Shown one piece after another: positions 9,698-42,022 of a stretch of 42,267 nt of DNA (the first letter of the stretch is position 1; each line of letters opens with the position of its first letter). Source of the DNA: Thiogranum sp. Its GTDB lineage: Bacteria; Pseudomonadota; Gammaproteobacteria; DSM-19610. Where the stretch lies: assembly GCA_030148915.1 (NCBI GenBank), contig JASBSN010000075.1, positions 1 through 42,267 on the forward strand, given 5' to 3'. The notes beneath the pieces are model-generated. The model was not told where the DNA came from, searched no databases, and saw only the letters and a program-made list of their open reading frames with translations. Position numbers and translations under genes: made by a program.

Positions 9698-10798
9698 ATG
9701 ACACAGGACACTGACATGCAGAACCTGCTCGACCTCGATCGACCGGCGATGGTCGAATGGTTTCGCGCCCGTGGCGAGAAGCCGTTTCGTGCCCAGCAGG
9801 TGGTGAAGTGGATTCACCAGCAGGGGGTGGACGATTTCGACCTCATGACCAACCTCGCCAAGCCGCTGCGCGAGGCGCTGAAACGCGAGGCCTGCATTCG
9901 CGGGCCGGTGGTGGCGAGTGTTCAGCGTTCGGCTGACGGCACGCGCAAATGGCTGTTTGAACTGACAGACGGCAACCGCATCGAAACAGTTTATATTCCC
10001 GAGCCGGACCGGGCGACGCTGTGCATCTCTTCGCAGGTCGGGTGCGCGCTGAACTGCAGCTTCTGTTCAACCGCGCAACAGGGTTTTAACCGTAATCTCA
10101 GCGCCGCCGAAATTATCGGTCAGCTATGGATGGCCAATCGCCTGCTGGCCGCCGAGGGCCAGGCGCAGGTCTCCAATGTGGTCTTTATGGGCATGGGCGA
10201 GCCGCTGTTGAATCTCGATCAGGTGCTGCGCGCGGTGCACCTGATGCAGGATGATTTCGCCTACGCTCTGTCCAAGCGTCGCGTCACTCTGAGCACCGCC
10301 GGTGTCGTGCCCGGTCTGCAGCGTCTGGCCCGCGAGAGCGATATCAGCCTGGCCTTGTCGCTGCACGCGCCCAATGATGCGCTGCGCGATGAGTTGGTGC
10401 CGCTGAACCGCAAATACCGCATCGAAGCAGTGTTGCAGGCGTGCAAGGCGTATGTCGGCGAAGGGCGGCGACGGGTGACCATCGAGTACGTGATGCTCGC
10501 CGATGTCAACGACAGCGATCAACACGCGCATGATCTGGCCCGGGTATTGGCGCAGGTTCCCTCCAAGGTCAACCTGATTCCGTTCAACCCGTTTCCCGCC
10601 GCGCGCTATAAGCGCAGCAGCGCGCGGCGTATCGAACGCTTCCGCGATATTCTCTACGCCCACGGTGTGGTCACGATTACACGGCGCACCCGCGGTGAGG
10701 ATATCGACGCGGCCTGCGGTCAGCTGGCGGGCGATTTCGAGGATCGCACGCGGCGCCGGCAACGTATTTCAGTCGAACTCATGGGGGGCGCGGCATGA
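9698..10798 (+). CDS. rlmN: Dual-specificity 23S rRNA/tRNA (adenine C2) methyltransferase RlmN
   Basis: RlmN is a radical-SAM enzyme that methylates C2 of A2503 in 23S rRNA and A37 in some tRNAs. The 366-residue protein has the radical-SAM cluster motif CALNCSFC at Cys116, Cys120 and Cys123. The SAM-binding [11 protein letters not shown] follows. A C-terminal cysteine in [12 protein letters not shown] corresponds to the one that forms the covalent RNA intermediate. The ATG at 9698 is used, though one at 9716 ([10 protein letters not shown]) is also possible; neither has a strong ribosome binding site. Its stop overlaps the start of pilW. Confidence 0.96.
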
Positions 10799-30027: not shown

Positions 30028-30936
30028 TTACATCGTTCCTTGGAACTGGGGGGCTTCCTCCAATACCAGTTCGGCAAAAGCGGATGCAGCTGGACTCAGA
30101 CGTTTGTTCTCGCGTTGCACCAGATACCACTGCCGTTCCAATGGAAAGCCTTTGACATCCAGTACGCACAGTTGACCGGATGCGATCTCGGCTCGGATCG
30201 TATGTAATGACACCACACCCAGTCCCAAACCGGCTTCCACAGCGTGCTTGATCGCTTCATTTTTATTCATTTCCATAGCTGCCTGGAAGGTATGGCCGTG
30301 TTCGGTGAAAAACTTTTCCACCGCGCTGCGCGTGCCTGAGCCCTGCTCTCGTCCAATGAGTGGCTCATCAAGGAGTCTTTCAAGCGGGATGCCGGTTTCA
30401 TGCGCCAGCGCATGATTCGTGGCGGCGATGACAACGAGCGGGTTGTCCATGAATGTCTGAGCGGACAGATTGCAACCCTCCGGCGGCTGTCCCATCAGCG
30501 CGAGATCGATGACGTTGTCAGACAGGTGTTGCAGCAGGGTTTCGCGATTGACTACGTTGAGACTGATGCGCACATCAGGGTGCATAGTGCGGAACAGCGC
30601 TAGGAGACGGGCAGAGAAAATGCTTGCGGTACTGGCAGCCGATACAGTGAGTGTGCCTCCTCTCAGTCCCTGCATTTGGGCCAGCAACTGCTCCAGATTG
30701 GCCAACTCATGCTCAATCGCCTGACCTGACTTCAAGACTTCTCTGCCAGCCGTGGTGAGATGAATATGTTTGCCCATGTGCTCAAAAAGGGGAATCCCCA
30801 GTACCGCTTCCAGCTGTTTGATCTGCATGGAAACAGCTGGCTGGGTGAGGTGAAGCTCTTTACTGGCTTGTGAAAAACTCTCGCAGCGGGCCACGGTGTC
30901 GAGTATTTCGAGTTGTCGTAATGTCAGCTTACGCAT
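30028..30936 (-). CDS. cbbR: LysR-family regulator CbbR
   Basis: CbbR is the LysR-type activator that controls Calvin-cycle genes in response to metabolites such as RuBP or NADPH. The 302-residue protein has the N-terminal winged HTH (residues 5-63: LRQLEILDTVARCESFSQASKELHLTQPAVSMQIKQLE). A periplasmic-binding-like effector domain follows from about residue 90. It is divergent from cbbM across 110 bases holding a perfect inverted repeat, the classical cbbR-cbb layout. GC content is visibly lower than in the chromosomal genes to the left. The CbbR name rests on both HTH pattern and position. Confidence 0.9.
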   Translation of the reverse strand: MRKLTLRQLEILDTVARCESFSQASKELHLTQPAVSMQIKQLEAVLGIPLFEHMGKHIHLTTAGREVLKSGQAIEHELANLEQLLAQMQGLRGGTLTVSAASTASIFSARLLALFRTMHPDVRISLNVVNRETLLQHLSDNVIDLALMGQPPEGCNLSAQTFMDNPLVVIAATNHALAHETGIPLERLLDEPLIGREQGSGTRSAVEKFFTEHGHTFQAAMEMNKNEAIKHAVEAGLGLGVVSLHTIRAEIASGQLCVLDVKGFPLERQWYLVQRENKRLSPAASAFAELVLEEAPQFQGTM

Positions 30937-31046: not shown

Positions 31047-32456
31047 ATGGCCCACGATCAATCCGGTCGCTACGCTAACCTTGATTTTAAAGAAGAGGAT
31101 CTGATTGCCGATGGCAAACATTTCCTGGTGGCTTACCGCCTGAAACCAGCCAAAGGGCATGGTTTCCTCGCCGTCGCTGCTCACGTTGCCGCCGAGTCGT
31201 CTACCGGCACCAACGTGGAAGTATCCACCACCGACGATTTCACCCGTGGTGTGGATGCACTGGTCTATGAGATCGATGAAGCTGCTTTTGGTGACAAGGG
31301 TGGGCTGGTCAAGATTGCCTATCCGGTTGAACTGTTCGACCCGAACCTGAGCGACGGCCATTACAATGTCTCGCACATGTGGTCGCTGATCCTGGGTAAC
31401 AACCAGGGCATGGGTGACCACGAAGGTCTGCGTATGCTCGACTTCCTCGTGCCTGAGTGCATGCTCAAGCGCATCGATGGTCCTTCAGCCAATATCTCCA
31501 ACCTGTGGAAGGTCATGGGCCGCCCGGAAGAAAACGGCGGCTATATCGCCGGCACCATCATCAAGCCAAAGCTGGGCCTGCGTCCTGCGCCTTTCGCCAA
31601 GGCCTGCTATGATTTCTGGCTGGGCGGCACCTTCATCAAGAACGACGAGCCGCAGGCAAACCAGCCATTCTGCCCGATGGAAGAAGTGATCCCGCTGGTC
31701 GCCGAGTCCATGGACCGTGCCCAGCAGGAAACCGGAGAAGCCAAGCTGTTCTCTGCCAACATTACCGCTGATTACCATGCGGAAATGATCAAGCGCGGTG
31801 AGTTCGTGCTGGAAGCATTCGCCAAGTATGACTCTGCCGATCACGTTGCCTTCCTGGTTGACGGCTTCGTCACCGGTCCTGCTGGTGTCACCACCTGCCG
31901 TCGCGCCTTTCCTGATACCTTCCTGCACTTCCACCGCGCAGGTCATGGTGCACTGACTTCCTACAAGTCGCCGATGGGTATGGACCCACTGTGCTACATG
32001 AAATTGGCACGCATGATGGGGGCTTCCGGTATCCACACCGGTACCATGGGCTACGGCAAGATGGAAGGCCATGCCGGTGAAACCGTTCTGGCTTACATGC
32101 TTGAACGCGACGAGTGCCAGGGCCCTTACTTCTACCAGAAGTGGTACGGCATGAAAGCAACCACACCGATCATCTCCGGCGGCATGAATGCCCTGCGTCT
32201 GCCTGGGTTCTTCGAGAACCTGGGACACGGTGACCTGATCAATACCTGTGGTGGCGGTTCCTTCGGCCACATCGATGGTCCGGCAGCCGGTGGTAAGTCT
32301 CTGGATCAGGCCTACGAGTGCTGGAAAGAAGGTGCCGACCCAATCGAGTATGCCAAACAGCATAACGAGTTTGCACGTGCATTCGAGTCATTCCCGGGCG
32401 ATGCCGACAAACTGTTTCCCGGCTGGCGCGAAATGCTGGGAATCAAGGCTGCTTAA
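31047..32456 (+). CDS. cbbM: Ribulose bisphosphate carboxylase, form II
   Basis: Form II RuBisCO fixes CO2 onto ribulose 1,5-bisphosphate as homodimer-based large subunits in the cytosol. In this 469-residue protein the active-site residues are present: Lys173 in [12 protein letters not shown], and the carbamylated Lys198 with metal ligands Asp200 and Glu201 in [16 protein letters not shown]. These match R. rubrum Lys166, Lys191, Asp193 and Glu194 with equal spacing. [19 protein letters not shown] is also typical of form II. ATG 31047 has GCAGGAG 6 bases upstream and is preferred over a start 24 bases earlier. No small subunit and no cbbQ/cbbO activase genes follow; a strong terminator closes the unit. 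Confidence 0.98.
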
Positions 32457-32580: not shown

Positions 32581-33600
32581 CTAGTCCGCCATTTGCCGGA
32601 TTACCGCCCGGGTAAATGTCGCTGTATCCGCAGTTCCGCCAAGATCGCGCATGCGCTGTTCTGGGTCGGCCAGTGCCGCCATGATTCCCCGGCGTAGCCG
32701 ATTCGCGGCCGCGTCTTGATCCAGGTATTCGAGTAACAGGACAGCAGAAAGCATGAGTGCGGTGGGATTGGCGATGCCCTGACCCGCGATATCGGGTGCC
32801 GTACCGTGAACCGCCTCAAATATGGCGCAGCCGCCCGTCCCGAGGTTGGCGGAACAGGCCACGCCCAGACCGCCTATCAGGCCCGCCGCGAGATCAGACA
32901 GAATGTCGCCAAATAGATTGGTGGTCACGATGACGTCGAAAGTCTGCGGATCGATGACCATGCGCATGGCTGTGGCGTCCACGATCATATCGTTGAACTC
33001 GATGCCCGGGTACTCTGCCGCCACCTCCCGGCCAACTTCCAGAAACAGTCCGCCCACCATTTTGAGGATATTGGCTTTGTGAACCAGGGTGACCTTGTGA
33101 CGGGCATGGCGGCTGGCATATTCGAAGGCATACCTGATAATGCGTTCCGAGCCTTCCCGGGTAATGATGGCGATCGATTCCGCTGCATTGCGTTTGCCGA
33201 TAAAGTGCTCCACACCCGAGTACAAACCCTCGGTGTTTTCACGCACGATCACCATGTCCACGTCCGTGAACCGGCTCGGAACCCCGGGTAGTGTTTTCGC
33301 GGGGCGCACATTGGCATAGAGGTCGAAATGCTGGCGTAGTCCGACGTTGACCGAACGGAAACCCTCTCCGACGGGTGTGCCCAGCGGTCCTTTCAGGGCA
33401 ACCCTGTTTTTTTCAATGGATGTCAGTGTCTCCTCGGGCAGGGGAGTGCCGCGTGCTTCCACTGCAGCGAGTCCTGCCGGCACCCTTTCCCATTCGACTT
33501 GACCACCGGCGGCCGCGACGGCGGCAACCGTGGCAGCGGCTATTTCCGGCCCGATGCCATCGCCTTCGATCAGGGTTACTTGTTTCGTTTGATCAATCAC
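32581..33600 (-). CDS. NAD-type isocitrate dehydrogenase (beta-decarboxylating family)
   Basis: This enzyme oxidises isocitrate to 2-oxoglutarate, probably with NAD+. The 339-residue protein is of the short IDH/IMDH type: EGDGIGPEI at the N-terminus, the substrate loop RSVNVGLRQHFDLYANVRPAK (Ser as in isocitrate enzymes), and the metal-binding TNLFGDILSDLAAGLIGG. HGTAPDIAGQG has Asp-Ile where NADP-dependent E. coli Icd has Lys-Tyr, indicating NAD specificity. It starts at a GTG that overlaps the stop of a short upstream ORF. It converges on cbbM and diverges from the Hyf-like operon. Homoisocitrate or isopropylmalate activity is less likely from the substrate loop. Confidence 0.85.
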   Translation of the reverse strand: MIDQTKQVTLIEGDGIGPEIAAATVAAVAAAGGQVEWERVPAGLAAVEARGTPLPEETLTSIEKNRVALKGPLGTPVGEGFRSVNVGLRQHFDLYANVRPAKTLPGVPSRFTDVDMVIVRENTEGLYSGVEHFIGKRNAAESIAIITREGSERIIRYAFEYASRHARHKVTLVHKANILKMVGGLFLEVGREVAAEYPGIEFNDMIVDATAMRMVIDPQTFDVIVTTNLFGDILSDLAAGLIGGLGVACSANLGTGGCAIFEAVHGTAPDIAGQGIANPTALMLSAVLLLEYLDQDAAANRLRRGIMAALADPEQRMRDLGGTADTATFTRAVIRQMAD

Positions 33601-33845: not shown

Positions 33846-34109
33846 ATGATAACTGCTGCCCAGATTCGCGCCGCCCGTTCTTTGCTGGGTCTTGATCAAC
33901 TCCAGCTTGCCAAGGCGTCTGGCTTGTCTCTGCCGACCATCCAGCGCATGGAGGCCAGCGACGGCCTGGTGCGCGGTAATGTGGACTCTCTGGTCAAAGT
34001 GGTGGAGGCGTTGGAGCGCGCCGGTGTGGAACTGATTGGCGATGGCGCTACCAGCGCGGGCGGCGGTCGGGGGGTGCGCTTGAAACAGGCCGGGGAGGCG
34101 AAGAAATGA
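33846..34109 (+). CDS. XRE-family regulator leading the Hyf-like operon
   Basis: This is an 87-residue DNA-binding protein with a helix-turn-helix over residues 1-60 (MITAAQIRAARSLLGLDQLQLAKASGLSLPTIQRMEASDG). The stretch VEALERAGVELIGDG is typical of small XRE regulators, and the tail is basic (GVRLKQAGEAKK). Its stop overlaps the hyfB-like start (ATGA), so regulator and complex are translationally coupled. A palindromic operator candidate lies about 40 bases upstream. Probable role: autoregulated control of the membrane complex. The inducing signal is unknown. Confidence 0.85.
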   Translation: MITAAQIRAARSLLGLDQLQLAKASGLSLPTIQRMEASDGLVRGNVDSLVKVVEALERAGVELIGDGATSAGGGRGVRLKQAGEAKK

Positions 34110-36106
34110 CCATGTCCTTCTCTTTGCAGTTGGCCGGGGGCGCTGTTGTGCTGGCGCTTTTGTCCGCCCTGGTCTCGTTTTTCACTGCTGGGGCGCGGCG
34201 ATTTATGGCTATGCCCTTATTCGCCCTGGCCGGTCTGGTGGCGCTCGTTGCCGGTGCGGGGGCCTTGATCGCTGGGGGGGTGGCTACAGCCGAGCTGCCT
34301 CTGGGCCTGCCCTGGTTGCCCTGGCAGGTTCGTCTGGACGCACTGTCCGGATTCTTTCTCTGTGTCGTCGGGGTTGTCAGTTTTGCCGTCGGCCTGTATG
34401 CACCGGGCTATTTGCGCGGTTTTGAGCATGGTAACGACTCGTTACGCGCGCTGGGTGGATTCACCGGCCTGTTCCTGGCCGGCATGCTGCTGGTGATACT
34501 GGCCGATGATGCCTTTATGTTCATGGTGGCCTGGGAACTCATGTCACTGTCGAGCTATTTCCTCGTCGTCTGGCATCACGATCACGCCGCCAACCGGCGC
34601 GCGGCCTTTCTTTACCTGCTCATGGCTCATGTCGGTGGCCTGTCCATCCTGCTGGGCTATGGTGTGCTGGCCTCCTTTGGCGGTGGCTTTACCTTCGAGG
34701 CGATGCGAGGGGCAGAGCTTTCTTTCACCTGGGCCAGTGTTGCCTTCGTACTGGCCTTTGTGGGCTTTGGTATGAAGGCGGGGCTGGTGCCGCTGCATGT
34801 CTGGCTGCCCGAAGCCCATCCGGTCGCGCCCTCGCATATTTCGGCGTTGATGTCCGGGGTGATGCTCAAGGTGGCGGTTTATGGTTTTATTCGCTTCGTC
34901 TTCGATCTCGTCGGTGACGTTCACTGGCAGTGGGGCGTGGCGGTATTGATCATCGGCAGTGTCTCGGCCCTCATGGGCGTGCTGTATGCCTTGATGCAAC
35001 ATGATCTCAAACGCCTGCTGGCCTATCACTCGGTGGAGAACATCGGCATTATCTTTATCGGTCTGGGGTTGGCGTTGCTGTTCCTGGCCGAGGGTCACAC
35101 CGTCATCGGCACCGTCGCCTTTGTCGCTGCGCTTTACCACACCATTAACCATGCCCTGTTCAAGGGGCTTTTGTTCCTCGGTGCCGGCGCCATCCTGCAC
35201 AGCGCTAACGAACGCGATCTGGAAAAGATGGGTGGCCTGTTGCGGCGCATGCCCTGGACCGGGCTGTTTTTTCTGATCGGTTGTATTTCCATTTCGGCAC
35301 TGCCGCCGTTTAACGGCTTTGTTTCCGAGTGGCTGACCTTCCAGGCAGCGCTGCAGGCCTGGCAACTGGACAGCGGGGTGTTGCGTAGCATCGTGCCGAT
35401 TGTGGCGGCGGTACTGGCGCTGACCGGTGCGTTGGCCGCGGCCTGTTTTGTCAAAGTGTACGGCGTGGCGTTCCTGGGCCAGGCGCGCAGCCGCGCCGTG
35501 CGCCGCGCCAGGCCGGTGCCCCTGAGCATGCGTGTTGGGCAGGGGATACTTGCACTGCTGTGTCTGTTGCTGGGCGTGTTGCCCACGGCTTTTATTGACT
35601 TGTTCAATACCGTCCCACAACAACTGCTGGGCCACGGCTTGCGACAGGCCACGGCCCACGGCTGGTTATGGTTGACGCCGATTTCGGCACAGACCGCCAG
35701 TTATGGCGCGCCGCTGGTGGCCATTAGCTTGTTTGCGGTGCTGGTGCTGGGCCTGTGGCTGTTTGGCCGCGGCATTCGCCGAGTACGCCTGTGCGACGCC
35801 TGGGACTGCGGTTTCGCGCCGCCGGGCAGCAGTATGCAATATACCGCCAGCGCTTTCGCTCAACCCATCCGCCGGGTGTTCGGCCTGCTGTTTCACATGG
35901 ACGATGGTGTGGAACCCCAGGAAGATGGACGCCTGCGCCATCGCCTGCAGGTGGGCGACCGGTCCTGGGACCTGTTCTATACGCCGGTTGCACGCACCGT
36001 GGAGCGTGCGTCACGGCAGGTGGTGCGCCTGCAGTCGGGCAATATTCGCATCTATCTGGGCTGGACCCTGGGAACCTTACTGGTGCTGTTATGGCTGATG
36101 GTATGA
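34106..36106 (+). CDS. HyfB-like proton-translocating membrane subunit
   Basis: A large antiporter-type subunit homologous to HyfB/HycC and NuoL/M. The 666-residue protein (E. coli HyfB 672) has about 15 membrane helices. It keeps the TM5 Glu in FMVAWELMSLSSYFLV. The charged residues of the channel are in FGMKAGLVPLHVWLPEAHPVAPSHISALMSGVMLKVAVYG, including two Lys and His. The C-terminal signature CDAWDCGFAPPGSSMQYTASAFAQPIRRVF is the HyfB/HycC type, not NuoL. GGGGAGG lies 8 bases before the ATG, which overlaps the XRE stop. An ATG six bases later is possible. Likely function: moving H+ or Na+ across the inner membrane, coupled to the G/I module. Confidence 0.88.
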   Translation: MTMSFSLQLAGGAVVLALLSALVSFFTAGARRFMAMPLFALAGLVALVAGAGALIAGGVATAELPLGLPWLPWQVRLDALSGFFLCVVGVVSFAVGLYAPGYLRGFEHGNDSLRALGGFTGLFLAGMLLVILADDAFMFMVAWELMSLSSYFLVVWHHDHAANRRAAFLYLLMAHVGGLSILLGYGVLASFGGGFTFEAMRGAELSFTWASVAFVLAFVGFGMKAGLVPLHVWLPEAHPVAPSHISALMSGVMLKVAVYGFIRFVFDLVGDVHWQWGVAVLIIGSVSALMGVLYALMQHDLKRLLAYHSVENIGIIFIGLGLALLFLAEGHTVIGTVAFVAALYHTINHALFKGLLFLGAGAILHSANERDLEKMGGLLRRMPWTGLFFLIGCISISALPPFNGFVSEWLTFQAALQAWQLDSGVLRSIVPIVAAVLALTGALAAACFVKVYGVAFLGQARSRAVRRARPVPLSMRVGQGILALLCLLLGVLPTAFIDLFNTVPQQLLGHGLRQATAHGWLWLTPISAQTASYGAPLVAISLFAVLVLGLWLFGRGIRRVRLCDAWDCGFAPPGSSMQYTASAFAQPIRRVFGLLFHMDDGVEPQEDGRLRHRLQVGDRSWDLFYTPVARTVERASRQVVRLQSGNIRIYLGWTLGTLLVLLWLMV

Positions 36107-37056
36107 ATCCAGTCGGTTGGCTATTAGCGCTCGTCCAGGCGTTATTGTATATCGCCCTGGCGCCGTTGCTGGCTGGTTGGGTGCGCAAGGTCAAGGCCCG
36201 TCTGCAAAACCGGCGCGGTGCGTCCCTTTGGCAACCCTACCAGGACTTATATAAGTTGTTCGCCAAGGAGGCGCGCATGGCGCATACCGCCTCAATATTG
36301 TTTCGCGCCGCACCATATATCGTATTTGTCGCCACCTGGCTGGCGGCTGCTGCGGTGCCTTTGCTGACCAGCGACCTTGCGACTGCCGCCATCGCCGATG
36401 TGATTGTCATTGCGGGTTTGCTGGCGCTGGCGCGTTTCTTTCTCGCCCTGGCCGGTATGGACGTGGGCACGGCCTTTGGGGGTATGGGCGCCTCACGCGA
36501 AATGTTTGTCTCGGCGCTTGCAGAACCGGCCATGTTGATGGCCGTGTTTACCCTCGCCATGACAGCGCACAGCACCAACCTGTCTGCGGTGGTCGATTAC
36601 CAGCTCGCCGGCGCCAATTTGTTGCGGCCTTCCTATGTGTTTGCCCTGGCAGGGCTTCTTCTGGTGGCCATTGCCGAGACCGGCCGCATTCCCGTGGACA
36701 ATCCCACCACCCACCTGGAACTGACCATGATTCACGAGGCCATGATCCTGGAATATTCCGGGCGTCACCTGGCGTTGATGGAATGGGCGGCGCAACTGAA
36801 ATTGTTACTCTACGGCGTGTTGATCGCTAACGTGTTTTTCCCCTGGGGTATCGCCCGGGATGTCGGCGCCGGCGCCCTGGGTCTGGCACTGGTCGTGTTG
36901 CTTGGCAAACTGATGTTGCTGGGTGTGGTATTGGCGGTGAGTGAGACCGTGCTGGCGAAGATGCGTCTGTTCCGTGCCCCGGCCTTTCTGAACCTGGCCT
37001 TGTTATTGGCGCTGCTGGGCTTGCTCAGCTACGTGATTCTGGAGGTAGGCGCATGA
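36103..37056 (+). CDS. HyfC-like membrane subunit (NuoH-related)
   Basis: This integral membrane subunit links the peripheral arm to the antiporter subunits. The 317-residue protein has about eight membrane helices and the HyfC/HycD signature AIAETGRIPVDNPTTHLELTMIHEAM. A conserved cytosolic loop RRGASLWQPYQDLYKLFAKE is the quinone-cavity-side loop in NuoH relatives. The start is the ATG at 36103, overlapping the hyfB stop (ATGA); ATG 36091 would add four residues. Key acidic residues of the family signature are intact, so the proton- or charge-coupling part seems functional. Confidence 0.87.
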   Translation: MNPVGWLLALVQALLYIALAPLLAGWVRKVKARLQNRRGASLWQPYQDLYKLFAKEARMAHTASILFRAAPYIVFVATWLAAAAVPLLTSDLATAAIADVIVIAGLLALARFFLALAGMDVGTAFGGMGASREMFVSALAEPAMLMAVFTLAMTAHSTNLSAVVDYQLAGANLLRPSYVFALAGLLLVAIAETGRIPVDNPTTHLELTMIHEAMILEYSGRHLALMEWAAQLKLLLYGVLIANVFFPWGIARDVGAGALGLALVVLLGKLMLLGVVLAVSETVLAKMRLFRAPAFLNLALLLALLGLLSYVILEVGA

Positions 37057-37739
37057 GTCTGGAACAACTGCCCATGTTGCAACAACTCATGCTGGTGCTG
37101 GCGGCGATGGTGTTGTTCACTTCTTTTGTCTTGCTGGAACAGGCACGGCTGTTGGCGGCTATTCACGCCTTTGCCTGGCAGGGCGTGCTGGTGGCGCTGG
37201 TCACCGCCATCGTGGCATCCAGCAGTGAACATTTGCACCTGTTCTTTTCCGCGGCGTTGACGCTGGGGCTGAAGGCATTGCTGATCCCGTGGATGCTGCA
37301 CCGCCTGGTGCGCCGCCTGGAGTTGGATCGTCATCGCGAGCCGCTGCGCCGCCCGGCGCTGGTGATCATGGCGGCGCTGGCGCTGGTGATCTTCAGCTAC
37401 TGGGCGGTGGTGCCCGTGGTGCAACAAGAGTTGCTGTTTACCCGCAACATTGTTGCCGTGAGTCTGGCGGTGGTGCTGATCGGCCTGTTGATGATGGTGA
37501 TTCGTACCCAGGCTGTGGCCCAGGTACTGGGGTTCATGTCCATGGAAAACGGCCTGTTCCTGGCAGCGGTATCGGCCACTGGTGGCATGCCCCTGGTGGT
37601 GGAGCTGGGCGTGGCCTTCGACGTGCTGGTGGCCATGGTGCTGTTCGGCGTGTTCTTCTTCCAGATCCGCGAAAGCATCGACTCGCTAGACGTGGACCGC
37701 ATGAACCGGCTCACCGAGCACGTGGAGGAAAAGTCGTGA
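37053..37739 (+). CDS. HyfE-like membrane subunit (NuoK-related)
   Basis: A small membrane subunit related to HyfE and, in part, to NuoK. The 228-residue protein (E. coli HyfE 216) has about seven membrane helices, a cytosolic basic loop (RLVRRLELDRHREPLRRP), and the stretch QVLGFMSMENGLFLAAVSATGGMPLVVELGVAFDVLVAMVLFGVFFFQI. This stretch carries the family's conserved membrane Glu residues (MEN and VVELG). It overlaps both neighbours by four bases. Confidence 0.85.
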   Translation: MSLEQLPMLQQLMLVLAAMVLFTSFVLLEQARLLAAIHAFAWQGVLVALVTAIVASSSEHLHLFFSAALTLGLKALLIPWMLHRLVRRLELDRHREPLRRPALVIMAALALVIFSYWAVVPVVQQELLFTRNIVAVSLAVVLIGLLMMVIRTQAVAQVLGFMSMENGLFLAAVSATGGMPLVVELGVAFDVLVAMVLFGVFFFQIRESIDSLDVDRMNRLTEHVEEKS

Positions 37740-39208
37740 ACGCCCTGCTGATCACCGTAGTGTCGCCACTGGCCGGCGCCCTGATCTTGCCGTCGCTGCG
37801 GCGTTTGTCGTGGGCGGGTTGGCTCAACGTGCTGGTGAGCACCATTACTCTGGCCGCCTCGCTGAACCTGGCCGTCACCGTGGCCGATCACGGCGTGGTG
37901 GCCAACTCGCTGTTTCGCGTGGACGCCTTTAATGTCTATCTGCTGGTGCTGACCGCCTTTGTGGGGGTGACCACTTCCATCTTTTCTCGTCCCTATATGC
38001 GTCATGTGTGCGACAGTGGCCGGGTGAGCCAGCGGGGTATGCGCCTGTATCACGCCATGTTCCAGGCCTTCATGTTCACCATGTTTTTAGCGCTGTCGAC
38101 GGATAACCTGGGCGTGTTGTGGGTTTCCGTGGAGGGCGCCACCCTGGCCACGGTGCTGTTGGTGTCGCTATACCGCACGCCGGAGGCTATCGAGGCGGCG
38201 TGGAAGTATTTTATTCTCTGTGGCGTGGGCATTGCGCTGGCCCTGTTCGGCACGGTGCTACTGTATTTCGCGGCCCAGCATGTCATCTCCGACCCGGAGG
38301 CGGGATTGAGCTGGAGCGCGCTGTATTCGGTGGCCCCGCAACTGCAACCCGCCATTATGTCCCTGGCCTTCGTGTTTCTACTGGTGGGCTACGGCACCAA
38401 AGTGGGGCTGGTGCCCATGCATCAATGGCTGCCCGATGCCCACTCTGAAGGCCCGACCCCGATGTCCGCGGTGCTCTCCGGTTTGTTGCTCAATGTCGCC
38501 CTGTACGCAGTGGTGCGCTTGAAGATGCTGGTGGACGGTTCCTTATCGGCTACGGACTCGCCGCACACGGCGGGTTATTTGTTAATGGGATTCGGCCTGG
38601 TGTCATTCCTGGTGGCGGGGCTGTTTCTGCACCGCCAGCGTGACATCAAGCGCATGTTCAGCTATTCCTCCATCGAGCACATGGGTCTGATGACCTTTGC
38701 CTTCGGACTGGGTGGGCCGCTGGCCACCTTTGGCGCCCTGCTGCACATGCTGGTGCATTCGCTCACCAAGTCGGCCATCTTTGTCACCGTCGGTCACGCC
38801 GCACACATCGCCGGCACTCAGTCCATCGACCACATTCGCGGTCTGATTCGCACCCAACCGGCGGTGGGGTGGGGATTGTTGCTCGGTGTGGCGGCCATCG
38901 CCGGTTTCCCGCCGTTCGGCGTGTTCACCAGTGAGTTTCTCTTACTGACCGCCACCATGCAGAGCCAGCCCTGGTTCACGGTGGCCTTGCTGACAGGGCT
39001 GGCGGTCGCCTTCGCGGGTTTGTTCCGCCATCTCCACCCCATGGTGTATGGCCCGGTCCCCGAAGGACAGCAGCCGGTATCCGCCAACATGCTGCCCGTC
39101 ATTGTGCACCTGGGACTGGTGTTGTGGCTGGGCCTGTCCATTCCCGGTTTCTTGTCCCGCTGGCTGGATCGGGCCACGGAACTGATCACGGGAGCGCATT
39201 TATTGTGA
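37736..39208 (+). CDS. HyfF-like proton-translocating membrane subunit
   Basis: The second antiporter-type subunit of the complex, related to HyfF and NuoN/M. The 490-residue protein has about 14 membrane helices. It keeps the TM5 Glu (VLWVSVEGATLATVLLV) and a channel Lys and His in YGTKVGLVPMHQWLPDAHSEGPTPMSAVLSGLLLNVALYA. The position that is Lys in the HyfB-like subunit (MLKVAVYG) is Asn here (LLNVALYA). The start is a GTG with GGAGGAAAA upstream, overlapping the hyfE stop (GTGA). Two antiporter subunits in one complex suggest more than one ion pathway. Confidence 0.86.
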   Translation: MNALLITVVSPLAGALILPSLRRLSWAGWLNVLVSTITLAASLNLAVTVADHGVVANSLFRVDAFNVYLLVLTAFVGVTTSIFSRPYMRHVCDSGRVSQRGMRLYHAMFQAFMFTMFLALSTDNLGVLWVSVEGATLATVLLVSLYRTPEAIEAAWKYFILCGVGIALALFGTVLLYFAAQHVISDPEAGLSWSALYSVAPQLQPAIMSLAFVFLLVGYGTKVGLVPMHQWLPDAHSEGPTPMSAVLSGLLLNVALYAVVRLKMLVDGSLSATDSPHTAGYLLMGFGLVSFLVAGLFLHRQRDIKRMFSYSSIEHMGLMTFAFGLGGPLATFGALLHMLVHSLTKSAIFVTVGHAAHIAGTQSIDHIRGLIRTQPAVGWGLLLGVAAIAGFPPFGVFTSEFLLLTATMQSQPWFTVALLTGLAVAFAGLFRHLHPMVYGPVPEGQQPVSANMLPVIVHLGLVLWLGLSIPGFLSRWLDRATELITGAHLL

Positions 39209-40791
39209 GTCGTTTCGACTGGTTGTCCGAGTATCTCGCCCGTTTGGAGGATGAACATGTGGTCGTGCGCCGTGGTGATGCGGCCCGGCTGGCGCCTGCG
39301 CATTGCTTGATCCTGGATGCGGAGGACTGGGGAAATGTGGCGCGGGTTGCCGCCGATTCGGGTTACCGCTGGGCCGGCTTATGGGGCGATCCTGTCGCTG
39401 AACAGGTGATTGTCCATGCTGGTTTCGTCCACGAGGGTGACTACCTGATATTGATCACGGAAGTGCCCTTGAGCCACCCGGTGCTGGCCTCGCATACGCC
39501 CTATTACCCCGCCGCCAACCGGCTGGAACGCCACTTGCAGGACATGCTCGGCATCGGCTTTCTGGATCACACCGACGGCCGCCGCTGGACCCGCCATCGT
39601 GCCTGGCCGGAAGGTGTTTATCCGCTGCGCAATGACTTCCCCGTATCCGGTAATTCACCCCATCGGACGCCGGCAGACAGTGATTATCCTTTTGAACGAA
39701 TTCTGGGTAGTGGGGTGTACGAGATACCCGTCGGGCCGGTGCACGCCGGTATCATTGAGCCGGGCCACTTCCGATTTCAGGCGGTGGGAGAAGAAATTCT
39801 GCGCCTGGAAGCGCGGCTGGGTTATGTGCACAAAGGCATCGAAAAGATCGCCGTGGGTCGTGATCCCGTCGGACTGGCGCGCCTTGCCGGCCGTGTTTCC
39901 GGAGACGCCACCGTCGCCCACACCTGGGCGGCCTGCATGGCCATGGAACGGGCCGCAGGCCTGGATATTCCGCCTCGGGCACTGGCCATACGCGCGATCC
40001 TGGCCGAGTGCGAGCGCGTCGCCAACCACCTGGGGGATATTGGCGCGATCTGCAATGACGTGGGCTTCACCTTTGCGCAGATGCAATTCGGCCGCTTGCG
40101 CGAAGACTGGCTACGCGGCAATCAGTCGGTGTTCGGCCACCGCCTGTTAATGGACTTCATCGTGCCCGGGGGTGTTGTTCGCAATCTGACTTATCAATGC
40201 AAGAAGATATTGCAGCCGCAACACGAGGCGCTTTCACGGGAACTGGATGATTTGCTCCCCATTATCGACGACCATTCTTCACTGGAGGATCGACTGGTCG
40301 AGACCGGTTATCTGTCTAACGAGGAGGCGCAACGGTTGGGCGTGACCGGTTATATGGGCAAGGCCAGCGGTCAGGACTACGATGTCCGGCGCGACCATGG
40401 CTATGCGCCCTACGACAGGCTGGATGTGCCATCGCCGTGTCTGATGGAAGGCGATGTTGCCGAGCGGATACGAGTCCGTGCGGAGGAGATCCGCCATTCG
40501 TTGAAGTTGATGGAACATCTGATGCGACGCCTCCCGTCGGGGCCGGTATCGGTTTCCTGGCCAGAGGTGGTTTCCAAACGGGAGGGGATAGGGTTGGTGG
40601 AAAGCTGGCGCGGCGAGATACTGAGCTTTGTGCGTTTCGGTGAGGACGGGCGAGTCGCGCGCTTCTTCCCACGGGATCCAAGCTGGTTTTCCTGGCCAGC
40701 GCTGGAGCGGCTCATCCATGGCAACATCGTGCCTGACTTTCCGGTATGCAATAAATCCGTTAATGCCTCCTATTCCGGACACGACCTGTAG
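39205..40791 (+). CDS. HyfG-like large subunit without NiFe ligands (Ehr type)
   Basis: Homologue of the HyfG/HycE large subunit, fused as usual to a NuoC-like N-terminal domain (about 1-160). In this 528-residue protein the catalytic domain starts near 170 (GSGVYEIPVGPVHAGIIEPGHFRF). In true hydrogenases motif L1 is RVCGICGFTH; here it is RVSGDATVAH (residues 230-239), so both cysteines are lost (Ser232, Ala235). The C-terminal DPCYSC motif is NASYSG here (Ser522, Gly525). All four NiFe ligands are therefore missing and hydrogenase activity is excluded. It starts at a GTG overlapping the hyfF stop. This is the hallmark of energy-converting hydrogenase-related complexes. Confidence 0.88.
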   Translation: MSRFDWLSEYLARLEDEHVVVRRGDAARLAPAHCLILDAEDWGNVARVAADSGYRWAGLWGDPVAEQVIVHAGFVHEGDYLILITEVPLSHPVLASHTPYYPAANRLERHLQDMLGIGFLDHTDGRRWTRHRAWPEGVYPLRNDFPVSGNSPHRTPADSDYPFERILGSGVYEIPVGPVHAGIIEPGHFRFQAVGEEILRLEARLGYVHKGIEKIAVGRDPVGLARLAGRVSGDATVAHTWAACMAMERAAGLDIPPRALAIRAILAECERVANHLGDIGAICNDVGFTFAQMQFGRLREDWLRGNQSVFGHRLLMDFIVPGGVVRNLTYQCKKILQPQHEALSRELDDLLPIIDDHSSLEDRLVETGYLSNEEAQRLGVTGYMGKASGQDYDVRRDHGYAPYDRLDVPSPCLMEGDVAERIRVRAEEIRHSLKLMEHLMRRLPSGPVSVSWPEVVSKREGIGLVESWRGEILSFVRFGEDGRVARFFPRDPSWFSWPALERLIHGNIVPDFPVCNKSVNASYSGHDL

Positions 40792-40794
40792 GCC

Positions 40795-41304
40795 ATGCTG
40801 AGAATACTCAATAAAATCTGGCATACCGGCACCGTTACCGAACGCCGGCCACGCGATGCGGAAATCGAGCGCTTCGGTAAGCAGGTAAAACGCGCCATCG
40901 ATCGGCGCTTTCGGGGCAGCCTTGCTATCCGGCAGGTGGATGCGGGTTCCTGTAACGCCTGCGAACTGGAGATCCACGCCCTCAACAACCCCTACTATGA
41001 TATTGAGCGCTTCGGTGTGCACTTTGTTGCCTCTCCGCGTCACGCCGATGCCTTGCTGGTGACAGGTCCGGTATCGCGGCACATGGAAACGGCATTACGC
41101 CGGACCTGGATGGCCACCCCCTCGCCCAAGTTCGTGATCGCCGCGGGCAACTGTGCCTGCGATGGTGGTGAGTTTGGCGTCTCCTATGCCAGCTGCGGTG
41201 CGGTGGAAAATGTCATCCCGGTTGACGTCAAAATTCCAGGCTGTCCGCCAACACCACGGGATCTGTTGTGGGGGATACTTGCAGCCATAGACGTGAAAGG
41301 TTAG
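40795..41304 (+). CDS. HyfI-like small subunit with one [4Fe-4S] cluster (NuoB-related)
   Basis: This is the electron-transfer small subunit, homologous to HyfI/HycG and NuoB. The 169-residue protein keeps the proximal [4Fe-4S] ligands: Cys53 and Cys56 in AGSCNACELE, Cys120 in AAGNCACDGG, and Cys150 in PGCPPTP. The hydrogenase-type CNACE pattern is used rather than NuoB's tandem CC. The N-terminal 45 residues are basic. It starts 3 bases after hyfG and is the last gene of the complex. No HyfA- or HyfH-like ferredoxin subunit is encoded nearby, so the electron donor for this cluster is unknown. Confidence 0.88.
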   Translation: MLRILNKIWHTGTVTERRPRDAEIERFGKQVKRAIDRRFRGSLAIRQVDAGSCNACELEIHALNNPYYDIERFGVHFVASPRHADALLVTGPVSRHMETALRRTWMATPSPKFVIAAGNCACDGGEFGVSYASCGAVENVIPVDVKIPGCPPTPRDLLWGILAAIDVKG

Positions 41305-41357: not shown

Positions 41358-41699
41358 ATGGATCATATGATTGAGGTTAGAGAATACCTCGATGCTGAGG
41401 GAAACAGTCCTTATGCCAAATGGTTCGATCGTCTGAATGTGACCGCTGCGGTCAAGGTGGCGACGGCAGTCCATCGGATGGAGCAGGGTAATTTCTCTAA
41501 CGTGAAAGGTGTTGGTGCCGGCGTCTATGAGTACCGGATTGATTTTGGCCCTGGCTATCGGATCTACTTCGGCAAGGACGGGGACCGGTTGGTGATATTG
41601 CTCGCGGGTGGTACCAAGAAGCGCCAGGATGCAGATATTACTGCCGCGAAAGGGCATTGGCGCGACTATAAGCGCCGAAAACGGCAAGAGGTGACATGA
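41358..41699 (+). CDS. RelE/HigB-like toxin of a type II toxin-antitoxin pair
   Basis: This is a predicted small toxin of the RelE/ParE superfamily, of the type annotated as addiction-module killer protein. The 113-residue protein has the typical MIEVREYLDAEGNSPYAKWFDRL start, a G-VYEYRIDFGPGYRIYFGKDGDRLVILLAGGTKKRQDADI core, and a basic C-terminus. The start may be ATG 41358 or 41367. The region just upstream (41343-41369) is AT-rich with the palindromes CATATATG and CATATG, possible operator sequence. Its stop overlaps the antitoxin start. Toxin-first order is usual for this subfamily. Confidence 0.85.
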   Translation: MDHMIEVREYLDAEGNSPYAKWFDRLNVTAAVKVATAVHRMEQGNFSNVKGVGAGVYEYRIDFGPGYRIYFGKDGDRLVILLAGGTKKRQDADITAAKGHWRDYKRRKRQEVT

Positions 41700-42022
41700 T
41701 GGCTTTGACGAAAGATTTTAAGGACACTATACAGGCTCGCGCCCAACGGGATCCGGCGTTTCGCAAGGCCCTGCTACAAGAAGGGGTCGAATGCCTGCTC
41801 GCCGGTGATGTCGATACCGGCAAGGCAGTGCTGCGTGACTACATCAACGCGACGATCGGATTCGAAGAGCTCTCCCAAGTCTTCGACAAGTCGAGCAAGA
41901 GCCTCATGCGCATGTTCGGGCCAAAAGGGAACCCCCAGGCGAGCAACCTGTTTGCGGTGATCCAATACCTGCAGGAGCAGGAAGGGATTCACCTGGAAGT
42001 CAAAGCCCGGAAGGTTGCCTAA
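41696..42022 (+). CDS. Antitoxin of the type II pair (HTH, addiction-module antidote)
   Basis: This is a DNA-binding antitoxin of the group that pairs with the preceding toxin type. The 108-residue protein has a conserved central part, GDVDTGKAVLRDYINATIGFEELSQVFDKSSKSLMRMFGPKGNPQASNLFAVIQYLQEQEG, containing the helix-turn-helix. It starts at ATG 41696, overlapping the toxin stop (ATGA), though ATG 41699 is equally possible. It should neutralise the toxin and repress the operon. The position at the right edge of the island fits a role in keeping the element in the population. Confidence 0.85.
   Translation: MMALTKDFKDTIQARAQRDPAFRKALLQEGVECLLAGDVDTGKAVLRDYINATIGFEELSQVFDKSSKSLMRMFGPKGNPQASNLFAVIQYLQEQEGIHLEVKARKVA

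Follow-up and report, generated by a model that had tools for sequence, protein, structure and literature searches.

What does a complex built like a group 4 [NiFe] hydrogenase do once its large subunit contains none of the four cysteines that would bind the metals? This question is raised by the hyfBCEFGI unit of Thiogranum sp. (Gammaproteobacteria; GenBank assembly GCA_030148915.1), located on contig JASBSN010000075.1, all 42,267 nucleotides of which were analysed and are referred to here as the window. An initial annotation had assigned the unit to the energy-converting hydrogenase-related (Ehr) complexes. We are highly confident that it is not a hydrogenase and that it represents a maintained Ehr-type pump. 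Based on comparison of sequences and gene neighbourhoods, we propose tentatively, and at somewhat less than an even chance, that this pump serves the supply of inorganic carbon (bicarbonate or CO2). The unit comprises the following genes and motifs:

33846..34109, + strand: XRE-type helix-turn-helix (HTH) gene, 87 residues (PF01381, E 1.7e-05), with a 4-base overlap with hyfB
34106..36106, + strand: hyfB, antiporter-like membrane subunit, 666 residues (NF005086, hydrogenase 4 subunit B, 840 bits, above cut-off)
36091..37056 (start at 36091 or 36103), + strand: hyfC, NuoH-like membrane subunit (PF00146, E 6.3e-42)
37053..37739, + strand: hyfE, membrane subunit, 228 residues, named by operon position and NF008556 (E 2.3e-24, under cut-off), no Pfam match
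37736..39208, + strand: hyfF, second antiporter-like membrane subunit, 490 residues (NF005045, 728.8 bits, above cut-off)
39205..40791, + strand: hyfG, large subunit without Ni-Fe ligands, 528 residues, GTG start (PF00346, PF00329, PF00374)
39892..39921, + strand: former L1 motif of HyfG, RVSGDATVAH, residues 230-239
40762..40779, + strand: former L2 motif of HyfG, NASYSG, residues 520-525
40795..41304, + strand: hyfI, NuoB-like small subunit, 169 residues, with four [4Fe-4S] cysteines (PF01058; NF005012, NuoB subfamily, above cut-off)

Further 4-base overlaps are present at the hyfC/hyfE, hyfE/hyfF and hyfF/hyfG junctions, hyfC starts inside hyfB, hyfG and hyfI are separated by a gap of 3 bases, and the operon is free of frameshifts. 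These junctions bear out the clean loss of ligands within a tightly overlapping operon that the initial annotation had described. The unit probably opens with the 87-residue HTH gene, one gene ahead of the start assumed earlier, as suggested by sequence comparison: homologues lie directly upstream of hyfB in eight of 59 loci, the window counted, and the annotations of two Rhizobium plasmids show the order HTH-hyfBCEFGI, again with an overlap between the HTH gene and hyfB. According to Pfam, HyfG consists of a NuoC-like and a NuoD-like part; none of the NCBIfam models for HyfG reached its own cut-off. As judged from the list of open reading frames and Pfam matches, neither NuoA nor an NADH module is encoded by the operon genes. 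No HyfA- or HyfH-like subunit was detected in the window operon by tblastn with the Escherichia coli proteins as queries (E 1e-5). Across 92 sources including the window the same searches yielded no HyfA relative and HyfH matches in two sources, L074 and L078, each in a separate cluster. Of the properties characteristic of Ehr complexes, homology to group 4 enzymes, absence of the Ni-Fe cysteines, a [4Fe-4S] small subunit and complex I-like membrane subunits were observed.

HyfG residues Ser232, Ala235, Ser522 and Gly525 align with C241, C244, C531 and C534 of E. coli HycE and with C243, C246, C517 and C520 of E. coli HyfG, so that both the coordinates and the alignment agree with the four cysteine replacements noted initially; accordingly, the group 4 motifs RxCGxC and DPCxxC do not occur in the protein. 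Conservation of these positions was followed in a set of 94 related large subunits, all of them distinct over their last 300 residues. Position 525 is invariably Gly. Ser prevails at position 232 (Ser 86, Ala 5, Cys 2, Val 1) and at position 522 (Ser 87, Asn 4, Ala 3), while position 235 is occupied by Ser in 64, Thr in 26, Ala in three and Cys in one of the sequences. Asp234, replaced by Ile or Val in the ligand-bearing enzymes aligned, is likewise invariant, and Asn520 and His312 are conserved in 99 and 98% of the proteins, respectively. On the evidence of these alignments, the ligand-less state of HyfG is old and fixed. The protein ends three residues past NASYSG and is devoid of a C-terminal extension, whereas HycE continues for 32 residues. 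The two columns that correspond to H224 and Y273 of E. coli NuoCD, the His/Tyr pair of the 49-kDa subunit that we take to hold the quinone head group in complex I, are filled by Ile184 and Gly233.

A PDB profile search with HyfG returned chain E (HycE) of the formate hydrogenlyase (FHL) structure 7z0s as the best match (E 1.3e-92), followed by Mbh and then by complex I subunits. In Foldseek, an AlphaFold2 model of HyfG (59 sequences; predicted local distance difference test score, pLDDT, 91.4) matched the same chain with a template modelling (TM) score of 0.92. Phylogenetic analysis of large subunits comprised 50 rows and was rooted on complex I; it contained relatives collected here, the E. 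coli proteins and five ligand-bearing group 4 rows (one of them long-branched), published Ehr reference sequences standing outside this set. The 37 ligand-less rows form a single clade (SH-aLRT, the Shimodaira-Hasegawa-like approximate likelihood ratio test, 94), and this clade spans Pseudomonadota, Nitrospirota and a few other phyla. Branching outward from it are the large subunit of the first cluster of L074 (partly changed and on a very long branch), then the ligand-intact L078 and L129, farther out E. coli HycE and HyfG, then L130 (ligand-intact, long branch) and finally complex I. Regardless of rooting, ligand-bearing rows are located between complex I and the ligand-less clade. Because these rows intervene and the quinone residues are absent, the window complex looks like a derived branch of group 4, not like an intermediate to complex I, a placement for which the sequences provide moderate evidence. 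The assignment to the Ehr type itself is upheld by the single ligand-less clade, the near-fixed replacements and the conservation, described below, of residues for pumping and for binding the cluster, and the tree positions the window protein beside the active group 4 hydrogenases and not among them; what calls for revision is the additional statement that these complexes are intermediate to group 4 hydrogenases and complex I.

Three loci combine different kinds of large subunit. At L078 (1740-3521), the ligand-less unit has as its neighbour a gene for a group 4 large subunit that bears the ligands (RICGVCSAAH ... FELCYSCTDR), and at L059 (genome G083, contig C60) another such gene is located about 12 kb from the ligand-less unit, as if one had arisen next to the other. 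In L074 (1-3200), a HyfH-like subunit is encoded in a second cluster whose large subunit, very long-branched, is of mixed type (TIAGDTSIAH, DLSYCGNDL) and may be intermediate between hydrogenase and ligand-less clade.

In HyfI, the initial annotation had seen all [4Fe-4S] ligands retained, and C53, C56, C120 and C150 are indeed each present in all 65 HyfI sequences scored, the window's included. The membrane subunits are conserved as well. E144, K224, H349, K353 and E408 of HyfB are each found in 100% of 65 sequences, E133, K345 and E400 of HyfF in 100% and K222 in 99% of 75 sequences, and the charged residues of HyfC are conserved among 68 sequences. Because the replacement positions and the pump residues are fixed, the unit is best understood as a maintained machine and not as a product of decay, in line with the function inferred at the outset.

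Analysis of neighbouring genes revealed a recurrent association. Neighbouring open reading frames were chosen by codon-usage scoring, the antisense clusters c5 and c41 were excluded, and the tallies cover 92 of 109 upstream and 109 of 133 downstream proteins, long and repeated-looking ones being left aside. The latter include histidine kinase, response regulator and DUF2490 proteins of methanotrophs on the downstream side, so that these families are undercounted; there is no SulP match among the excluded proteins. SulP (PF00916), a family of anion transporters to which bicarbonate carriers belong, is the commonest upstream family (15 of 92 neighbour proteins); MFS_MOT1 (12) and STAS (8) overlap with it, and HTH_3 (8) follows otherwise. 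For the 109 downstream proteins, SulP is absent from the 25 families (of 227) that were listed. Counted by locus and with HTH genes skipped, SulP is encoded within two genes upstream of hyfB in 13 of the 59 loci with a called upstream gene, divergently in L045 and with one gene between in L037 and L082. The Methylocaldum operon (L056) itself contains a SulP frame, which ends at 9921, between hyfF and hyfG, and in genome G017 from the window's own family SulP follows hyfI. In total, SulP thus occurs beside or inside the operon in 15 loci. Fifty genomes (49 carriers and the window's own) contain 140 SulP matches, split pieces counted, i.e., about 2.8 each, and chance would then produce approximately 0.07 linkages in 59 loci when roughly 4,500 genes per genome are assumed, a figure that is our own estimate. 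On a HyfG tree with 65 rows, the 15 SulP rows need six gains or losses as compared to 13.7 in shuffles, and at least five of the six are forced by starred branches.

A tree of 39 SulP sequences, in which the 17 hyf-linked rows need three changes, indicated two subfamilies. Eleven hyf-linked proteins, all from Methylococcales, form one clade that is sister (99/95) to a clade of 13 rows comprising all three SulP-carbonic anhydrase fusions, six of the ten SulPs encoded adjacent to carbonic anhydrase and four others. Of the remaining four carbonic anhydrase-adjacent SulPs, two branch off next and two, one of them very long-branched, belong to the other half of the tree. The SulP of L055 from the methanotroph clade has its best PDB match in 6ki1, deposited as 'Low affinity sulfate transporter', which we take to be cyanobacterial BicA. 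The literature searched, consisting of search listings and passages, yielded no report of a hyf-SulP linkage; this recurrent linkage is the new element here, while the Ehr type as such is already known.

How such a complex might work can be outlined as follows. HyfBCEFGI would pump ions across the membrane and trace back to a group 4 hydrogenase, with HyfB and HyfF as ion channels and HyfC as the coupling subunit, provided that the complex assembles and pumps as its subunits suggest. The [4Fe-4S] cluster of HyfI is the sole predicted redox centre and may be exposed, because no HyfH that would cover it was found. A soluble low-potential carrier could feed HyfI directly; alternatively, a small-molecule event in the rebuilt pocket could drive pumping. 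The old Ni-Fe pocket, now lined by Ser232, Asp234, Ser, Thr or Ala at position 235, Asn520 and Ser522, would bind something else or carry protons. Since SulP recurs as partner, uptake of an anion, most likely bicarbonate, may be what the gradient or the complex itself is for: either the gradient or direct coupling would drive bicarbonate import via the SulP-type carrier, or the pump would maintain the CO2/HCO3- supply of carboxylases, for instance form II RuBisCO. The latter enzyme is encoded in the window itself:

30028..30936, - strand: CbbR-like LysR regulator gene, divergent from cbbM (PF03466, PF00126; best NCBIfam match CbbR, under cut-off)
31047..32456, + strand: cbbM, form II RuBisCO, a neighbour not proven to be part of the unit (NF010002, 812 bits, above cut-off; PF00016)
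32581..33600, - strand: isocitrate/isopropylmalate dehydrogenase family gene, between cbbM and the unit (PF00180)

In the window, 1.4 kb separate cbbM from the HTH gene downstream, and in Thiomonas (L080) a cbbM homologue (66% identical to that of the window) follows about 250 bases after hyfI, itself followed by a cbbQ-like gene. For Acidithiobacillus ferrooxidans, the passages available give hyf as AFE2149-54 (PMC2621215) and cbbM as AFE_2155 (PMC6458275), which suggests adjacency, although the tags may stem from different annotation versions. An Accumulibacter locus (L079) carries a dabA gene (PF10070) about 3.5 kb after hyfG. Together with a published carbonic anhydrase neighbour discussed below, dabA and RuBisCO point to carbon.

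A number of observations weigh against this proposal. Forty-six of the 59 loci, the window among them, do not have SulP within two genes upstream of hyfB (one of these, L056, has it inside the operon), and the other six of the 17 hyf-linked SulPs constitute the second subfamily, a seven-row clade without any carbonic anhydrase-linked row that also holds one SulP of the window's genome. The best PDB match of a member of this subfamily (L070) is a prestin, and SulP proteins transport sulfate and other anions too. With regard to carbon genes, cbbM was found near the hyf unit in just two of 96 sources, the window and Thiomonas L080; RuBisCO-family matches, RuBisCO-like proteins included, are present in 31 of 50 carrier genomes and were not found in the six Methylobacter genomes searched. 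A role restricted to the Calvin cycle was rejected in view of the 19 carrier genomes without such a match. Two beta-class carbonic anhydrase queries, which together recovered the known genes in all seven control loci, found no gene of this class near hyf in any of the 96 sources, other carbonic anhydrase classes lying outside this search; an adjoining carbonic anhydrase gene was rejected as a general feature, the published Acidithiobacillus caldus case being outside the set. In the same 96 sources, dabA occurs near hyf solely in the one that supplied the query. Furthermore, hyf of one Nitrospira species is described beside carbon monoxide dehydrogenase, and that of others as co-occurring with formate dehydrogenase (passages of PMC5596200), and neither 'hyf' nor 'hydrogenase' at the start of a word is found by word search in a 2024 review of inorganic carbon genes (PMC10880623).

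Among the other explanations, that of an active hydrogenase with an unusual metal site is extremely improbable: fold and operon do resemble those of FHL-type hydrogenases, but Gly525 is invariant, Cys is nearly absent from the other three positions, the protein stops where HycE has its extension, and the large subunit encoded by A. ferrooxidans hyfBCEFGI was classified as non-hydrogenase by HydDB according to the passages available (PMC7735108). We give equally little credence to a decaying remnant of a hydrogenase operon, which would explain why the metal ligands are gone but conflicts with an intact, overlapping operon, with pump and cluster residues conserved in 65-75 homologues and with the occurrence of a single clade across several phyla.

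The main competitor of an inorganic carbon pump is a general redox-driven respiratory pump, in which ferredoxin, formate dehydrogenase or CO dehydrogenase would reduce HyfI and electrons would pass to quinone or another acceptor, SulP and RuBisCO being incidental or mere users of the gradient. It would account for the retention of cluster ligands and pump residues and for the carrier genomes without RuBisCO-family match, and the passages available propose a link between formate dehydrogenase and other Ehr complexes (PMC6349859), suggest formate for A. ferrooxidans hyf (PMC2621215; PMC7735108) and relate the Nitrospira complexes to CO and formate dehydrogenases (PMC5596200). On the other hand, the columns of the quinone pair hold Ile184 and Gly233, HyfH- and HyfA-like subunits were not found in these operons, the two HyfH matches belonging to separate clusters, and a search of the 96 sources with E. 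coli FdhF yielded one weak homologue, so that the formate dehydrogenase partner proposed in the literature finds no support here. We regard a respiratory pump as possible, if unlikely. A pump for ion or pH homeostasis that is coupled to SulP transport of sulfate or another oxyanion instead of bicarbonate agrees with the SulP linkage, with the involvement of two SulP subfamilies and with the Mrp/Mbh-type antiporter gene near one of the hyf units (L062); it appears improbable: of the two hyf-linked SulP clades, the larger has the one with the carbonic anhydrase fusions as its sister, and RuBisCO, dabA and the published carbonic anhydrase neighbour favour carbon.

Orthologues of the unit were found in 11 of 55 searched relatives of the window's genome (47-66% identity), and a scan of named genomes revealed at least 80 hyf loci. 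HyfG also matches 91 plasmid records (E <= 1e-30), most frequently from Rhizobium (31) and Azospirillum (16); a few from Escherichia, Klebsiella and Proteus may represent other group 4 proteins. In the draft genome to which the window belongs (G000, 99% complete), no NuoA match was obtained and the sole NuoD-family match is HyfG itself, while NuoA is present in 11 of 12 same-genus genomes searched. The window's genome may be devoid of complex I. Two 51-kDa-family matches in G000 are located in clusters that were read by eye as Rnf. Replacement of complex I by the hyf unit is not a general explanation, since NuoA is present in the unit-carrying relatives G001, G002, G007 and G009.

Directly after hyfI, the window contains a Gp49-family gene (PF05973) with an overlapping small gene (41358-42022); the two may constitute a toxin-antitoxin pair that has nothing to do with the complex. 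At L055 (12138-15870) and similar Methylococcales loci, hyfI is followed by genes for a DUF2490 protein, a histidine kinase and a sigma-54-type response regulator, perhaps regulators of the methanotroph hyf unit. Near the hyf unit of a Thiobacillus metagenome-assembled genome (L062, 14267-21204) there are two genes, one CbbR-like and the other for an antiporter containing MbhD/MbhE domains (PF13244, PF20501), and the same contig carries a second SulP.

The window unit can be compared with several known systems. Its large, small and membrane subunits are homologous to those of complex I (NuoCD, NuoB, NuoH and NuoL/M/N), whereas its HyfG does not contain the quinone His/Tyr pair and the operon does not contain an NADH module. 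With E. coli hydrogenases 3 and 4 (FHL-1 and Hyf) it shares the fold, and HyfB and HyfF pass the NCBIfam cut-offs for hydrogenase 4; it differs by the absence of Ni-Fe ligands and C-terminal extension, and by HyfA and HyfH not having been found. In the DAB system (DabA-DabB) and the cyanobacterial NDH-1 CO2-uptake complexes, antiporter-like subunits serve inorganic carbon. The window unit resembles both in having such subunits, and dabA is located near one relative (L079), but searches of the window itself with two beta-class carbonic anhydrase queries and one DabA query detected neither gene, other carbonic anhydrase classes lying outside the search. Similar by description are the Ehr complexes without ligand motifs of Sulfobacillus (PMC4378227) and comammox Nitrospira (PMC10284858), whose function is reported as unknown in the passages available and which likewise combine a group 4-like large subunit with complex I/Hyf-type subunits. 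This likeness is one of description and not of a common tree, and the passages describing them mention no SulP or cbbM neighbour. Like gene sets, again compared by description and not by sequence, are hyfBCEFGI of A. ferrooxidans and hyfBCEFG of A. caldus, complexes that the respective papers interpret, in contrast to our reading, as hydrogenase or formate-linked. In A. caldus, one hyf cluster adjoins a beta-carbonic anhydrase gene and another occurs with carbon fixation genes, and the former was considered to be a hydrogenase that may aid CO2 and pH balance (passages of PMC3826726).

The reaction of Ehr complexes is presented as an open question in the published passages (PMC10284858; PMC4378227). 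The SulP linkage and the missing quinone pair provide a concrete proposal beside the published guesses, i.e., formate and CO2/pH balance, and they argue against naming such operons hydrogenase 4. In its widest form, which we put forward speculatively and consider rather doubtful, this Ehr clade would represent a further use of complex I-type pumps for inorganic carbon: an ancestral pumping hydrogenase would have given up its Ni-Fe site while retaining a single Fe-S cluster and the ion channels, and would now power or couple the import of bicarbonate with SulP as partner, in autotrophs as well as methanotrophs, its highly conserved polar pocket (Asp234, Asn520, Ser522 and their neighbours) having become a new working site.

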